Part shown: in pieces, positions 23,376 to 56,275 of the stretch
How positions within the stretch are numbered: the first letter of the stretch is position 1
Layout of the letters: every line of letters begins with the position of its first letter
Source of the DNA: Candidatus Zixiibacteriota bacterium
GTDB taxonomy: Bacteria; Zixibacteria; MSB-5A5; GN15; FEB-12
Assembly: GCA_024280215.1 (NCBI GenBank)
Contig: JAJRQO010000008.1
Location: forward strand, 1-64,000
Direction: 5' to 3'
DNA: 64,000 nucleotides
Program-made: the position numbers and the translations under genes
Notes under the pieces: generated by a model
Database searches by the model: none
What the model was told of the DNA's origin: nothing
Seen by the model: the letters and a program-made list of their open reading frames with translations, nothing else

Positions 23376-25748
23376 TTATGGGCAAGCAACAGGTGCAGAG
23401 CCACCAGAGAACATAAAGCTCACAAGCATAACTATATCAGAAATATCAATAGATGTGGATCCGTTAATATCTGCTTCTTCAAAACAATCTGGAGCTGGAC
23501 CAGATAAAAAAGAATAAGCTACAAAATAAACTAAATCACCTATATCAATTTGGTCATTAAAATCATTATCAATATTCCCACGAAACCCTACACAACAACT
23601 TGAATTCCCAAAAAGATTAAAAATAGTTGAATACTTCGATTCCTCACCACCATTTTTTGCTTGATATGCCACAAAGTAATCAATGGAATTATCACCATTA
23701 AAGTCATTTGCAGTAACATGATCAATATTAAACTCGTCGAACAAATAAATAGATGTCGTATCAAAAACACCAAACCAATTATTAAGCCTAACCGATAATA
23801 AATTTCCACTTATTGAACTTCCATCAGGATACCCATCACCATTTAGATCATGTAAATAACCGAAAGAGTTATCTATGTTATTTGGAAAAGGTGTCGTTAT
23901 AGTACCATCTCCAACATTTAATGCTGTCATCGAATTAGATAAAAGAAAGTCAACATCGCCGTCAGCATCGACATCACTTATTGCTTTTAATTCAATATTA
24001 GATAATAATACAGTAGGAGAAAATGACCCATCGGTATTATTAAAATAAATAGTAACATCATTTATTGTATTTGTAATATTACAAGCTATATCAACATATG
24101 AATCATTATTAAAATCAGCAAAAAAGAATTTCGTTACAGAAGTAGGAATTATTATAGTAGAATCACTAAAACTTGAATTATTATTAATATACAAAACAGC
24201 CTCGAAACCAGTATATGAAATAATATCCATGTCACCATCATTATCTATGTCTTGTGGATAAATTGTCCCATTTAGATTATCTATAAAGAATGATAATTCA
24301 TTTGGGAAATTTCCAAATCCATCATTATGATGAATAGTTATTCCTTGATTATTTCTATAGATAATATCAGCAAAAGTGTCATTATTCATATCGACAGTAT
24401 GAAAATCACCATTGTAGGCACCATCAACATTTATAAATATCGACTCAGTAAAATTACCAATCCCATCATTGTCATATAGCTGTATTCTAGTTCCTAAGGC
24501 ATAATCATGAACAACCAGTCCAATATCAAAATCACCATCTTTGTCAAAATCAGCATTATTTACTCCTCTTATTGGTTGACCAGGTATTGAGAAAGTATTG
24601 ATTGATTGAACGTGAAAATTACCAAATCCTTGATTTGCAAAACCATAACGGTTGAGCAAAATATCCACTTGATTGTTATTATCTATATCGACAAGTCGAA
24701 CTTCTCCTTGTTTGGAAAATAGTGGTAAATCTTCAGAATGTGAAAAAGTTCCAGTCCCATTGTTTAAGAAAATAGAAATAAAATATTGATTAGAATTGGC
24801 AACAACAAAATCTATATCCGAATCATTATCAATATCTGCTGCGTAAATATCACTAAGTTGAGCATCAATAAAATATGAACTGTCAATTATCAGGTTCCCT
24901 GTCCCATCGTTTAGTAAAACAGACACATCGTTAGAAATTGCATGTGTTACAATAAAATCATCAATTGAATCACCATTTAAGTCAGCGGCAAATATTTCAG
25001 TTGGACTATCACCTGTATAAAAACTGTTTTGAAGGGTAAAGGTACCATCTCCATTATTGAAAGAAATTGTTATTCCGTCAGAAAATGAATTTGGTGCTAC
25101 AAGGTCAAGAAAGGAATCATTGTCAACATCTGACAACACAATTGACATAGGATATTCACCTATATTATAATTCAAATAGCCGCCAAATGTCCCATCTCCA
25201 TTGTTTAAGAGTACAGAAACTGTATGAGAGAGTGGATTTGTTGTAACGATATCAATATAAGAATCATTATTAAGATCAGAAGAAAAGAGAGTTCTTCTAA
25301 TGTGAGATGGCTCGATACCTGTAAAATATTTTATTGCAGGAGCAAATGTACCGTCACTATTATTTAAAAATACGGTAATAGAATCAGTGTCATCAGTAAC
25401 TAAAATCAAATCACTGTCAGAGTCATTGTCAATATCTGACGCTTTTAAAGCAACCGGACTATCCTGAGTTGCTATAATATAACCTTGACCAAATGTCCCA
25501 TCTCCATTATTTAGAAAAACACCAATACCAATATCCTTGTAACCAACAATAGCATCTACAAAACCATCACCATTTATATCAGTAGATTCTAAAGTGTTAT
25601 CGACAGTGTTATTATACCAAGGGAGATTTAAATAAAAAACTGAATTCAAATCAAATATTTTTTCTTTGGCATTTATAGAAACTGTAAGTGTGAAAATTAA
25701 ACCAATAAATAAACACAACCCCACTAAAGATTTAAGCCTTGTAAACAT
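23376..25748 (-). CDS. Secreted FG-GAP/VCBS repeat protein with dockerin-like tail
   Basis: A protein of about 790 residues. The signal peptide has a basic start and then LVGLCLFIGLIFTLTVSINA. About 16-18 FG-GAP/VCBS-type repeats follow, each with an acidic loop of the type DINGDGFVD, DIDNDSDSD or DFNNDSYVD, plus a FLNNGDGTF turn. They should form calcium-binding beta-propeller blades. The last 70 residues hold two dockerin-like loops, IDNDFNDQIDIGD and ADINGSTSIDISD, each followed by a GGSAP-type turn. Such dockerin tails are common in Zixibacteria and relatives. I place the start at the ATG at 25748, preceded by GGAGG with 8-nt spacing. An in-frame upstream extension to 25781 lacks a Shine-Dalgarno site. 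Likely a surface or extracellular-matrix protein. Confidence 0.8.
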   Translation of the reverse strand: MFTRLKSLVGLCLFIGLIFTLTVSINAKEKIFDLNSVFYLNLPWYNNTVDNTLESTDINGDGFVDAIVGYKDIGIGVFLNNGDGTFGQGYIIATQDSPVALKASDIDNDSDSDLILVTDDTDSITVFLNNSDGTFAPAIKYFTGIEPSHIRRTLFSSDLNNDSYIDIVTTNPLSHTVSVLLNNGDGTFGGYLNYNIGEYPMSIVLSDVDNDSFLDLVAPNSFSDGITISFNNGDGTFTLQNSFYTGDSPTEIFAADLNGDSIDDFIVTHAISNDVSVLLNDGTGNLIIDSSYFIDAQLSDIYAADIDNDSDIDFVVANSNQYFISIFLNNGTGTFSHSEDLPLFSKQGEVRLVDIDNNNQVDILLNRYGFANQGFGNFHVQSINTFSIPGQPIRGVNNADFDKDGDFDIGLVVHDYALGTRIQLYDNDGIGNFTESIFINVDGAYNGDFHTVDMNNDTFADIIYRNNQGITIHHNDGFGNFPNELSFFIDNLNGTIYPQDIDNDGDMDIISYTGFEAVLYINNNSSFSDSTIIIPTSVTKFFFADFNNDSYVDIACNITNTINDVTIYFNNTDGSFSPTVLLSNIELKAISDVDADGDVDFLLSNSMTALNVGDGTITTPFPNNIDNSFGYLHDLNGDGYPDGSSISGNLLSVRLNNWFGVFDTTSIYLFDEFNIDHVTANDFNGDNSIDYFVAYQAKNGGEESKYSTIFNLFGNSSCCVGFRGNIDNDFNDQIDIGDLVYFVAYSFLSGPAPDCFEEADINGSTSIDISDIVMLVSFMFSGGSAPVACP

Positions 25749-25871
25749 AGACATTTCCTCCAAATTCGCATGATTCACCAACTAATTGATTATACGTGTA
25801 CCTTATAGGTCTAATATAGAGATTTACAAAAGCATTGTCAATGTATTAATTTGTAGGGAAAATAAAGAAAA

Positions 25872-50953: not shown

Positions 50954-51360
50954 AATACTTCTCTTCCCTTGCACAATCCCTTGTCCTTGCACAAACCCCT
51001 TCCCTGGCTTGACCAGGGATCCAGTCCTTTCGTCATATAAAATGGGTTCGTTTCTCACATAAAGGGAACCTACAGACTGCGTCTGACACATCATCCCCGA
51101 ACTTAACGACTACAATTTCAGTCGGTTATAACAAAATGGCTTTTCTAAATAAAATGGCTTAAGCCATTTGTACTAATATTATTTGTAGCCTTTTTGTACA
51201 TGACTTTTCTCAATTATTAAATTGCTTCGTCATGTATGGAGATGTATTTATATTATGCGTTGAATCTGTCAATAATTTGAGAGTGAACTTAGGGGTAGAC
51301 GAGAACGTCTACCGCCCACAGAAATGAAATAATAAATCTCCGACAATACAGCTATTATAG
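50954..51360. repeat. Gene-free flank with palindrome cluster (left of TIR module)
   Basis: No gene is supported in these 407 nt. The region contains, in order: a unit at 51001-51063 that is a diverged inverted copy of 53502-53564 (CCCTGGCTTGACCAGGG hairpin, CCAGTCCTT, AAAATGGG); the perfect palindrome AAATGGCTTAAGCCATTT (51152-51169); TACATGAC/GTCATGTA arms (51197-51204 with 51229-51236); and the hairpin GGTAGACGAGAACGTCTACC (51294-51313). The last one lies 48 nt beyond the stop of the converging TIR gene. Confidence 0.7.
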
Positions 51361-52161
51361 TTATTTAAGCAGTAACCATTTAAAGAAATTTTTGCCTTTA
51401 TCAGAGATAGTTATATAATAGTTATTTTTAGGATTATGTTCAACTAGTCCAAAAGCCATTGCTTCCGCAAGGTCTTGAATTTCTTTTCCCTCTAAAAGAC
51501 CAGGTTTTAAAATATTTTCTTTAGAATTTATAAAATTACCTATTTTCCCAGAATTTAGAAATTGTTCAAACTCATCATACATTTGAGTTTTTGAATTCTT
51601 AGATTTAATCTCTTTAACTAGTGTCTTTAAAGATTCAATTTCTTTCTCCTTCTGAAATAACTCTTTGTCTTTTAAAAGTATCTGCTTCTGAGTTTCTACA
51701 TCCCCATCTTGTAAAGAAAGATATTTACTCCAAATAGCAGTTACTAGCTTCCCTAATTGAATTTTATCATATTCAACAGGCATAAGATGTAATAAGTCAT
51801 CAGTTAGTTCAGGGTATCTTTTATCAATCTCTTCATAGGTTGCTTTAGAATCGAAAATAGAAATAATTTTACTTAGGTCAAAACTATTTCCTTTTTTTAT
51901 TTCTTCTCGTAAAACATGTTTTATCTCTCTATCTACCCATGAAGATTTTAGAGATTTCTCAGTAAAAAATATTAGTACTATATCTGCTTTATCTAAACCA
52001 TCTCTAAATATTGATTTTCTTAAATTTTCGCCAGGAACAATTTCATCCTTATCAAGCCAAATACTTATAAAGCAATCCCTTAAATCTTTGACAACAGGTT
52101 CGATTAAAGATTCCTTATCTTCCGAAGAATGACTAACAAATACTAATACAGATTGTCCCAT
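51361..52161 (-). CDS. TIR-domain protein (putative NADase effector)
   Basis: A 266-residue protein. The N-terminal TIR domain (about 1-150) has VFVSHSSEDKESLIEPV, WLDKDEIVPGENLRKSI, DIVLIFFTEKSLKSSWV and DREIKHVL, with Glu79 at the catalytic position of NAD-cleaving TIR domains (W-x3-E). A coiled coil follows (about 158-200), then a C-terminal winged-helix-like segment (about 205-266, ending YYITISDKGKNFFKWLL). TIR effectors in antiphage systems deplete NAD or make cyclic ADP-ribose signals once a partner detects infection. It starts 19 nt after the DUF3883 gene with a strong AGGAGGTAATT-ATG site, so the two form one unit. Confidence 0.8.
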   Translation of the reverse strand: MGQSVLVFVSHSSEDKESLIEPVVKDLRDCFISIWLDKDEIVPGENLRKSIFRDGLDKADIVLIFFTEKSLKSSWVDREIKHVLREEIKKGNSFDLSKIISIFDSKATYEEIDKRYPELTDDLLHLMPVEYDKIQLGKLVTAIWSKYLSLQDGDVETQKQILLKDKELFQKEKEIESLKTLVKEIKSKNSKTQMYDEFEQFLNSGKIGNFINSKENILKPGLLEGKEIQDLAEAMAFGLVEHNPKNNYYITISDKGKNFFKWLLLK

Positions 52162-52180
52162 AATTACCTCCTATTGCAAA

Positions 52181-53053
52181 TTATTTTTCTTTTAAATAAA
52201 CTTTATAATCAATTGGTTGAAATAACAACTCATTCATTGGATCAGAAATTATGAAATAGTCAGCTATATTATTTACATCATCATAATTATAAAGTCTGTA
52301 TATATAATATGTTTCTTTATTTCGTTCACCAAACAATTTTTCATTAAGACTAAGATAAAATGGTGTTTTTTTATCATCTTTTGTTGCTTTAACTTCTATA
52401 TAAATAGTGTTACCTTCTTCATTATATGATAGAACATCAAAGCCCTCTCCGTCTTTAGCTATTCTAACTTTTTTAGCTAAATTAGCTTTCTTTAATAATT
52501 TTAATTTCTTTACTTCTATTTCTTTAACTAATAATTCACCAGCATCACCCAAATCTTTATCGTGTTTATGCTTCTTGACATAATCGACATAAACCCCTTT
52601 GAAATTTGGCTTCAATTCTGGAAGTTCTGTGATACCATCAACAGGCATATTTTTCAATGAAAGTGTGTTAGGGGTAATTTTTATGGATTTATTTAAAACG
52701 TAATAACTTTTATGATTTAATCCTTTTTGCCAAAATATTTTTGATTTATCCATTTCTAAAAAACCAAATAATTTATTTCTCAAACTCGTTGCTTTACCTA
52801 AACCTAATTTCTCACACAAATTATAAAAGCCATATCCATGATCATTTTTCACTTTATAGATTACAATTGAACTTATTAACGGTCGATTATTATTGTGTTC
52901 AAAGGTAGATATTTCACCTAACGTTTTACTTAGTATTAAACGATCAGATTGCAATTCTAAATTCAAACCTAATTTATTTCCTACATCTTCATAGTAAATA
53001 GGTTTTCCTTTTACACATTGATCAATCAAATAATTTCTGATTTCATGATTCAA
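52181..53053 (-). CDS. DUF3883 (PD-(D/E)XK nuclease-like) protein
   Basis: A 290-residue protein. The C-terminal DUF3883 domain (about 165-290) has GDAGELLVKEIE (Glu173), KDGEGFDVLSY (Asp206) and TIYIEVKAT (Glu220-x-Lys222). These are arranged as in PD-(D/E)XK nuclease cores. The N-terminal 150 residues form a separate unrecognised domain containing HNNNRPLISSIVIY. DUF3883 domains recur in restriction and defence proteins, often as nucleic-acid-binding or sensor modules. The start is TTG at 53053, preceded by AAGGGG 8 nt upstream. It is the first gene of the two-gene module and is followed by the TIR gene. Confidence 0.75.
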   Translation of the reverse strand: MNHEIRNYLIDQCVKGKPIYYEDVGNKLGLNLELQSDRLILSKTLGEISTFEHNNNRPLISSIVIYKVKNDHGYGFYNLCEKLGLGKATSLRNKLFGFLEMDKSKIFWQKGLNHKSYYVLNKSIKITPNTLSLKNMPVDGITELPELKPNFKGVYVDYVKKHKHDKDLGDAGELLVKEIEVKKLKLLKKANLAKKVRIAKDGEGFDVLSYNEEGNTIYIEVKATKDDKKTPFYLSLNEKLFGERNKETYYIYRLYNYDDVNNIADYFIISDPMNELLFQPIDYKVYLKEK

Positions 53054-53628
53054 TTATTTTTCCCCTTTCGCTATCAAAATATTATGGGTAACGCGATTAC
53101 CTCGCCATACATAAATTTATTCCATACTTTTAATTACGAGTTATTTATCTTTATTGTCAATCACAAAACACTAGATTGTCACGTCTACATAATCGGATAA
53201 TCGTGTGTGGTAGATAGTCTCGTCTGCATTCCTCTGGATTCCCGATTTCGCGGAAATTACATTATAGAGAACTGTTGAAAGCTTTCACACATTCCATTCA
53301 ACTCTTCCATAAAAACTTAATGCACACGCTTGTATGAGAGAATGATTTTATAATAGTAATATGCATGCACAAAAAGAATACAGTTTTTATGAGGGGAAAT
53401 GGGTTAAAGCCATTTTTTTAACCTATCCCATTTCGTTGTAACACCCTGCGGGTGAATTATTTACCATGATAGTTTATTCAATAAATCAGCCTTCAGGCTG
53501 TGTTATATATGAGATGAGTCCCATTTTGTTATTGTAAGGACTGGTTCCCCAATCAAGTTGGGGATGGTGTGTCGTAGAGTTAGAGAGTAAGTAGAGGCGT
53601 TACATGTAACGCCCCTACAAATTTACAT
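53054..53628. repeat. Gene-free flank with palindrome cluster (right of TIR module)
   Basis: No gene is supported in these 575 nt; the first part should hold the promoter of the module. The palindromes are GGTTAAA/TTTAACC (53402-53408 with 53417-53423), CACCC/GGGTG (53442-53454), CAGCCTTCAGGCTG (53487-53500) and a 28-nt near-perfect palindrome GTAGAGGCGTTACA... (53591-53618). The unit at 53502-53564 is an inverted, diverged copy of 51001-51063, with the same GGACTGG..CCC.. core. Confidence 0.7.
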
Positions 53629-55429: not shown

Positions 55430-56275
55430 ATGAAATTAGACAACCTCTCAGACTACCTGAAAAACCAGATATTCATCGCATTTGACTCAGAAACAACTGG
55501 AATGTGGGCACCAATCAACCGCTTGGTTGAATTATCAGCGGTAAAATTCACTCTCAATTTAGGTGAAATCGAGACTTTTGATTTCCTGATTAATCCTCAA
55601 AAAAATATCCCTAAAGATGTAATCGAAATTCATGGAATCACCAATGCTATGGTCAAAGATTCACCGACTGCCAAGCCTGTCTTGAAAAAATTTAATGAGT
55701 TTTGTGGTGAAGATTCTATTTTAATGGCTCATAACGCCCCGTTTGATATTTCCTTTTTAGCCTCTGCTCTCAGACGAAATAAGATGAAATTTTCAGATAA
55801 TATGATTGTTGATACAATTGAAATTTGTAAAGAATTTTTTCCAAATTTACAGTCGTATTCGTTGCTCAATTTGATTAAGAAATTCGGGATGTCACAATCG
55901 CAAGACCATCGAGCATTATCAGATGCACGCTTTGTCTATTATCTATTTCGACATGCTGCCGAAAAGTTCCCATCTATTGAAACTCATGAAGATTTTATCA
56001 ACGCCTTTACGATTCATCGCATCACAGATTCTGATGATGAGATTAAAGAACTTCCTTCTGAATATTCTGATTTGAATTTTGCTTTTGAGAATAAACTTCG
56101 TGTTGAAATTGATTATTATCATCCTACTCGTGAGATAAATAAGCGAACAATCCAGCTTCGCGAAATTCATAAATTAGGATCAGTTTATTATATCATTGCC
56201 TATTGTGAACGAATGTGTTCTGAGCGGACATTCCGAGTCGATAGAATCAAAGAGTATAAGGTTTTAGCGGGGTAA
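55430..56275 (+). CDS. DnaQ-type 3'-5' exonuclease fused to a WYL-like domain
   Basis: 281 residues. The exonuclease domain (about 10-180) has the ExoI motif FIAFDSETTG (Asp19, Glu21), ExoII MAHNAPFDISFL (Asp) and ExoIII QDHRALSDARFVY (His, Asp), the DEDDh set of Pol III epsilon-type nucleases. The C-terminal part (about 205-281) reads LRVEIDYYHPT...RTIQLREIHKLGSVYYIIAYCERM...RTFRVDRI and looks like a WYL domain, which senses ligands or binds single-stranded nucleic acid in many regulators and defence proteins. Divergent from the lyase gene. No transcription-factor HTH is seen. Confidence 0.8.
   Translation: MKLDNLSDYLKNQIFIAFDSETTGMWAPINRLVELSAVKFTLNLGEIETFDFLINPQKNIPKDVIEIHGITNAMVKDSPTAKPVLKKFNEFCGEDSILMAHNAPFDISFLASALRRNKMKFSDNMIVDTIEICKEFFPNLQSYSLLNLIKKFGMSQSQDHRALSDARFVYYLFRHAAEKFPSIETHEDFINAFTIHRITDSDDEIKELPSEYSDLNFAFENKLRVEIDYYHPTREINKRTIQLREIHKLGSVYYIIAYCERMCSERTFRVDRIKEYKVLAG

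Follow-up and report, generated by a model that had tools for sequence, protein, structure and literature searches.

Does a nuclease gene followed by a gene for a Toll/interleukin-1 receptor (TIR) protein make up one antiviral system, or have two defence genes come to lie side by side? The question is raised by a gene pair in a 64,000-nucleotide (nt) stretch of DNA from a Candidatus Zixiibacteriota bacterium (contig JAJRQO010000008.1, positions 1 to 64,000; hereafter the window), in which a small nuclease protein with a DUF3883 (Pfam NOV_C) domain is encoded directly upstream of a TIR protein. Our preferred answer, to which we give a probability of roughly 43%, is that the pair is an acquired abortive-infection operon against phages, in which a DNA-directed nuclease protein controls a TIR enzyme that consumes nicotinamide adenine dinucleotide (NAD+).

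The domain assignments of both proteins are nearly certain. Pfam detected NOV_C in the first protein with an E-value of 2.7e-16 (59.8 bits against a cut-off of 22.1) and TIR_2 in the second with an E-value of 1.4e-16 (61.5 bits against 28). Together with the conserved residues, these scores confirm the PD-(D/E)XK-type DUF3883 domain and the TIR domain that an earlier note on this DNA had proposed. That note had also given the place, strand and 19-nt spacing of the two open reading frames (ORFs) correctly, and the residues it singled out, E173, D206, E220 and K222 in the nuclease and E79 in the TIR protein, are exactly the letters found. The four nuclease residues are invariant across six aligned DUF3883 proteins, D206 losing its invariance when the alignment also includes the second NOV_C protein of the genome, and E79 is invariant in 14 hand-chosen and aligned TIR proteins. 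With its TIR domain and catalytic glutamate, the second protein has the features of a catalytic-type TIR NADase and is predicted to hydrolyze NAD+.

The fold of the nuclease domain was compared using an AlphaFold model built from 16 sequences, only two of which cover the nuclease part, and the predicted local distance difference test (pLDDT) values over this domain are mixed (54–88, residues 171–270). A Foldseek search of the Protein Data Bank (PDB) with the model gave nothing at an E-value of 0.001 or below, the best match being Hjc at 0.0073. VIA-align matched residues 169–283 to Hjc resolvases (1gef_E, Z 7.5, root-mean-square deviation 3.2 over 95 residues), and also to RecU and to a SPARDA nuclease chain (9qcc_M, Z 7.3). 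These Z values fall in the range that VIA-align terms common, and they are consistent with the Pfam assignment and with the conservation of the named residues.

The two genes lie on the same strand and are likely carried on one transcript, with a likely ribosome-binding site in the gap between them. Their GC contents, 0.259 and 0.285, are the lowest among the 46 non-overlapping ORFs of at least 180 amino acids (aa) in the window (mean 0.361, standard deviation 0.034). The pair sits between an aromatic amino acid lyase gene (hutH-like) and a Sulfatase-family gene, an interval whose content differs among relatives: 39 nt separate the two ORFs in genome G011 and 51 nt separate the matches to the two neighbors in G005, while different genes occupy the interval in G004, G009 and G001. 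Within the same genus, G002 carries at the site a 145-aa ORF of low GC (0.278) that forms the downstream portion of a frame interrupted by one stop. A 154-aa HNH_5 ORF in G003, also of the same genus (L063 106–570), lies between the sulfatase gene and a contig end and probably belongs to the same interval, the lyase gene being near the end of another contig. We therefore consider this a variable site, possibly a small hot spot for integration, at which the pair, with its deviantly low GC content, was probably acquired horizontally. The interrupted gene of G002 (L061 2850–3760) looks nuclease-like by eye and has no Pfam match.

The strongest argument that the pairing is meaningful is that this type of nuclease occurs near TIR-fold genes in two phyla, although these are two cases. 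The only full-length relative of the nuclease that we found, 54% identical over the aligned parts, is a 485-aa protein of Algoriphagus yeomjeoni, a member of the Bacteroidota and hence of a phylum other than the window's; it starts at the same residue as the TTG codon of the window gene. In Algoriphagus the gene closes a one-strand operon of three genes that overlap by 8 and 4 nt, namely a DUF4062 gene (E 8.4e-13), a SLFN_AlbA_2 plus HATPase_c_4 gene and the nuclease gene itself. DUF4062 is described as a family of TIR-like NADases, and its bacterial member Swarozyc as an antiphage abortive-infection protein, in excerpts of a preprint of May 2026 (PMC13174449). The same type of nuclease is thus found twice, in two phyla, each time near a different branch of the TIR fold (TIR_2 and DUF4062).

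Ahead of its nuclease domain, the window protein carries an N-terminal domain (N-domain) that has no Pfam family at E-values up to 10 and that AlphaFold models well (pLDDT block means of 93–97, residues 1–110). An alignment of 20 sequences shows the conserved motif LGEIS..EH...RPL...G.GF...W. To find N-domains we used a DNA pattern for LGEIS..EH...RPL, which by design reaches only proteins near the motif; it occurs once in the 64-kb window and never in 100 shuffles, and elsewhere it matches one viral contig and 19 places in genome contigs. At 15 of these 20 places the motif lies within a protein of 109–136 aa; at L120 the protein is cut off by the end of the locus, and at four places it is longer. 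The N-domain is fused to NOV_C in Algoriphagus (L106), to HNH in a Planctomycetaceae metagenome-assembled genome (L124) and, on the viral contig (L105), to a segment whose XisH match is weak and below threshold, and the protein of L116 has an N-terminal extension.

An HsdM gene adjoins the N-domain gene at four of the 19 genome loci (L108, L111, L117 and L120), with HsdR on the opposite side of the N-domain gene at L108 and L111, and at three rhizobial loci (L112, L122 and L123) the N-domain lies near a DNA methylase; at the remaining loci the neighbors were read only as ORFs. Because of these HsdM, HsdR and methylase neighbors, the N-domain is seen to sit in restriction-type surroundings at part of its places. 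At the four HsdM loci an N-domain protein of about 125 aa stands directly before hsdM (L108 2761–3135, L111 6199–6573, L117 5266–5646 and L120 3–257), the L120 sequence being identical to that of L111 over the available part. A model comparison suggests that the stand-alone form is carried by phages too, the best viral match being S5VMJ6 of phage PaBG (116 aa, E 5.4e-4, template modeling score 0.75 by S5VMJ6 length).

Perhaps the N-domain has an alkyltransferase-like fold, since VIA-align matched residues 1–106 to O6-methylguanine methyltransferase (MGMT; 5llq_B, Z 5.1, 77 aligned; 1yfh_B, Z 4.9, 81 aligned). We treat this as a lead that sequence profiles do not confirm. A profile–profile comparison with MGMT gave a probability of 5.9% over just 15 columns (TIR control, 0.2%), and PF01035 was found in one of the 20 members at an E-value of 0.23, with four unrelated families scoring better (0.11–0.15, one member each). 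A profile search of the PDB returned no MGMT but sigma factor A (E 0.033 and 0.29), which we set aside, as we did the weak matches to PHROGs (best 0.026). MGMT proper was rejected as an identity for the domain, as its PCHR active-site motif is present in none of the 20 sequences. Alkyltransferase-like proteins do lack the active-site cysteine, and a search of the open-licence literature for alkyltransferase-like fusions found nothing.

From these features we infer that the pair was acquired and acts jointly, with foreign DNA as the trigger and NAD+ loss as the output. The N-domain would direct or regulate the PD-(D/E)XK nuclease, which would meet invading DNA, bind it and possibly cut it. The nuclease protein would then engage the downstream TIR protein, whose TIR domain would assemble and consume NAD+, and the loss of NAD+ would stop the infected cell. 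We prefer this reading because both active sites are intact, the genes are 19 nt apart with an AGGAGG in the gap, their GC content is low, the site is variable and the Algoriphagus relative is associated with a TIR-fold gene. It is also favored by the whole-genome census, in which there is one TIR_2 match and there are two NOV_C matches, and two of these three adjoin.

Other results weigh against it. The earlier note had looked to adjacency of the two genes in many unrelated genomes for support, and this was not borne out: the pair was seen only here, which counts against a common two-gene system. No TIR gene lay near the NOV_C gene at any of 24 other NOV_C loci (18 from Bacteroidota, five from the same phylum as the window and the second NOV_C gene of its own genome), searched at E-values up to 1 with a 22-segment TIR profile that is blind to DUF4062; three of the Bacteroidota stretches are short (4.3, 6.4 and 8.0 kb), by contig ends or by choice. 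From the other side, TIR matches outside the pair numbered 32 in 132 genomes, and NOV_C was found at none of 19 TIR loci taken with flanks, several of them on short contigs. The one-sequence NOV_C query used there recovers 19 of the 24 known NOV_C loci, and a repeat with a 24-segment profile, which recovers 22 of the 24 (most of them in the profile), again gave 0 of 19. TIR_2-type genes were likewise missing from all 20 N-domain loci. DUF4062, sought with a one-sequence Algoriphagus query, was absent from the 24 NOV_C loci and from the 19 other N-domain loci, so that the Algoriphagus arrangement stands as a single case. That arrangement also differs from the window pair in its third partner gene and in an extra middle stretch of the nuclease.

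Searches for relatives of the two proteins tell in the same direction. For the nuclease, 97 other related genomes yielded no relative of full length, their one weak match covering residues 165–274 only; single-protein and alignment searches of viral contigs yielded none of full length either, and among 72,556 plasmid and 50,697 phage records none matched over at least 80% of the protein. Neither plasmids nor the other sets searched gave any relative for the C-terminal part of the TIR protein. On plasmids of Qipengyuania (L217 2910–4456) and Sphingobium (L218 2888–4417), a DUF3883 gene of about 280 aa begins 3–5 nt after a gene annotated as HEPN, possibly another two-gene unit and a point in favor of the preferred reading; Pfam found no HEPN in either, leaving the annotation unconfirmed. 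Absence from these searches does not equal absence in nature.

Other searches give the background to these counts. PF13020 is present in six of the 132 genomes of the phylum, the window's own included. A two-protein profile (window plus Algoriphagus) gave matches in 21 of 395 Bacteroidota genomes, Algoriphagus included; the others covered the NOV_C part at 18 places, the N-domain at three and the middle stretch at one. Single-protein searches of genome contigs returned no relatives, and thirteen plasmid neighborhoods, one of them without annotation, show no TIR-DUF3883 pair. A plasmid of Priestia (L216 3470–8285) carries a DUF3427-NOV_C protein and an HNH endonuclease near dndD and a DNA-modification-associated small protein. 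No description of a DUF3883-TIR system was found in the open-licence literature.

The main rival account is that a DUF3883 nuclease gene and a TIR gene, each a defence gene in its own right, landed in the same variable site and have at most a shared transcript without working together, which we regard as a real possibility. It draws on the failure to find the exact pair again and on the NOV_C proteins at the 24 loci, which are mostly orphans with varied N-termini, and the lyase–sulfatase interval does take unrelated genes in relatives (among them the interrupted gene of G002 and, probably, the HNH_5 ORF of G003). It fits poorly with a 19-nt gap containing AGGAGG, with the matching composition of the two genes and with an Algoriphagus relative that also stands beside a TIR-fold gene. 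Random placement, moreover, would put the TIR_2 gene beside a NOV_C gene with a chance of about 0.1–0.2% if the gene number is taken as about 2,700, a figure below the true chance because defence genes cluster.

Even if the two proteins act together, control might run the other way, as in Thoeris: the TIR protein would sense infection and make a nucleotide signal, and the N-domain would bind the signal and unleash DNA cutting. Bacterial TIR proteins can make ADP-ribose-derived signals in immunity, according to excerpts of PMC13174449, and the N-domain is joined to more than one type of nuclease, as expected of a regulatory domain. However, type I restriction operons contain the domain by itself, with no TIR gene in the locus, so that it is not tied to a TIR signal, and we judge reverse signaling unlikely. 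We give still less credence to a plain restriction enzyme, type II or type IV-like, acting alone with the TIR gene as a back-up fired by damage. DUF3883 is named a novel restriction endonuclease domain found in restriction operons (PMC3710099) and a presumed type II restriction endonuclease in archaea (PMC10609329) in the parts of these papers that concern it, and the fold matches to Hjc/RecU and restriction endonucleases point the same way, but the flanking genes scanned include no methyltransferase.

Beyond the preferred reading of a nuclease protein controlling a TIR NADase lies a bolder proposal that we hold to be doubtful. The N-domain could be an unrecognized, widely shared DNA-reading module of bacterial immunity, perhaps with an alkyltransferase-like fold lacking the cysteine, stand-alone among type I restriction subunits or fused to NOV_C or HNH, which here would serve as the sensor commanding exchangeable TIR-fold NADases and would couple restriction directly to NAD-depleting suicide. 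If true, restriction-type DNA cutting and TIR-type NAD depletion, which are usually apart, would be joined in a very small form. The unnamed domain, met repeatedly in nuclease fusions and among type I restriction genes of several phyla, would gain a function, and DUF3883 nucleases would seem to act with exchangeable effectors.

The statement of the earlier note that no named system matches the pair still holds, PADLOC giving partial, one-domain matches only. By the features tested, the pair is not Thoeris, Swarozyc, SPARTA, retron-TIR, PD-T4-1 or PDC-S36; its working would resemble that of TIR effector systems, the nuclease protein taking the place of the sensor. Thoeris comes close in having two genes and a TIR protein, and PADLOC ThsB models match residues 7–94 at E-values down to 3e-9, with the Pfam ThsB_TIR family just above its domain cut-off (23.2 against 21.2 bits). 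However, the NCBIfam model ThcB4 (NF058526) scores 24.7 bits against a cut-off of 220, and the TIR gene is flanked by the genes of the NOV_C nuclease and the Sulfatase-family protein rather than by ThsA. A ThsA-type partner has SIR2, SLOG or another receptor of the ADP-ribose signal, and Pfam detected neither SIR2 nor SLOG in the two proteins. Among NCBIfam models the TIR part scores best with retron-TIR, a single-gene antiphage reverse transcriptase with a TIR domain (60.4 bits, residues 6–126), but the cut-off of 600 is far off, only the TIR part matches and no reverse transcriptase domain is present. In SPARTA and SPARDA a short Argonaute is partnered by a TIR-APAZ or a nuclease-APAZ protein. 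They resemble the pair in a TIR effector or in a nuclease chain of similar fold (the 9qcc_M match above), whereas Pfam found neither an Argonaute nor an APAZ domain in the pair.

Swarozyc shares with our cases a TIR-fold NADase effector, and the operon of the Algoriphagus nuclease relative starts with DUF4062, the family to which it belongs; the window gene, in contrast, is TIR_2 with no PF13271 match at E-values up to 1, and the excerpts name the phage portal as the trigger of Swarozyc and mention no partner nuclease (PMC13174449). The C-terminal nuclease domain is shared with the PADLOC candidate PDC-S36 (E 6.9e-29) and with PD-T4-1 (E 6.3e-14), but the matches join residues 150–274 to positions 140–265 of the 280-aa PDC-S36 model and residues 155–287 to positions 237–377 of the 383-aa PD-T4-1 model, and the window nuclease differs from both in having another N-terminal domain and then a TIR gene. 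No paper on PDC-S36 was found in the open-licence literature, and the word DUF3883 does not appear in the main text, as excerpted, of the PD-T4-1 paper (PMC9519451). The DUF3883 proteins of restriction-modification operons have the same nuclease domain but are fused to a SNF2 helicase, as described in part of PMC3710099, whereas the window protein is small. Type II restriction-modification differs in its methyltransferase, a family found neither in the pair nor among the seven flanking genes scanned.

Coordinates of the pair, its domains and the flanking repeats in the window
Feature	Position	Strand	Basis or remark
DUF3883/NOV_C protein, upstream member of the pair	52181..53053	-	290 aa, TTG start
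TIR protein, downstream member of the pair	51361..52161	-	266 aa, ATG start
N-terminal domain of the nuclease, residues 1–110	52724..53053	-	alignment of 20 sequences; AlphaFold
NOV_C/DUF3883 PD-(D/E)XK nuclease domain, residues 173–260	52274..52537	-	Pfam; E173, D206, E220, K222
GGGG, possible ribosome-binding site	53062..53065	-	8 nt 5' of the nuclease TTG; sequence
AGGAGG, likely ribosome-binding site	52167..52172	-	in the 19-nt gap, 5 nt 5' of the TIR ATG; sequence
TIR_2 domain, residues 7–91	51889..52143	-	Glu79 within a WxxxE motif
Predicted long helix/coiled coil, TIR protein residues 155–186	51604..51699	-	low-confidence model only
Winged-helix-like tail, TIR protein residues 208–266	51364..51540	-	pattern seen by eye in the sequence; low-confidence model
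Left flank, interspersed genomic repeats	50994..51239		outside the module; at least 48 matches in the genome
Right flank, interspersed genomic repeats	53345..53570		outside the module; at least 60 matches in the genome
28-nt palindrome, REP-like (repetitive extragenic palindrome)	53591..53618		two 14-nt arms, 93% complementary; many genome copies

In the TIR protein, a coiled coil and a winged-helix-like tail are plausible from the sequence pattern and from low-confidence helices in a single-sequence model, whose mean pLDDT of 39.7 was too poor for a fold search. One genome of the phylum has three TIR genes in a row (L179 4633–6401; 281, 127 and 145 aa). The second NOV_C gene of the window's own genome (G000:C6:33349-33612; L068 6936–7945) encodes a 255-aa protein with a different N-terminus, overlaps an 82-aa ORF and is flanked by apparent housekeeping genes.

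The flanks of the pair, which the earlier note had described as gene-free and rich in palindromes, are indeed gene-free, but their repeats are interspersed throughout the genome and hold nothing specific to the module. Being scattered in this way, they are no evidence for it. The repeat counts in the table include the flank itself and come from 40 scored candidates per flank, and the right-flank repeats partly resemble the left flank in inverted orientation. We claim neither a promoter nor a terminator for the pair: promoter-like sites in the region number 14, no more than in shuffles (mean 14.1), and the three terminator-like sites (shuffle mean 0.9, standard deviation 1.1) all lie within the right flank.

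A Pfam scan of the genes flanking the pair found no defence family; farther out than the lyase and sulfatase genes it found RecN-like, sigma-70-like, exonuclease and major facilitator superfamily genes. Adjoining the lyase gene, at window positions 55430–56275, an exonuclease domain (RNase_T) is fused to a WYL domain, an arrangement also present in the sister species. Elsewhere in the window, an 801-aa ORF (23376–25781) has a third-position GC content of 0.183, about the level of the pair, and is possibly another acquired gene.

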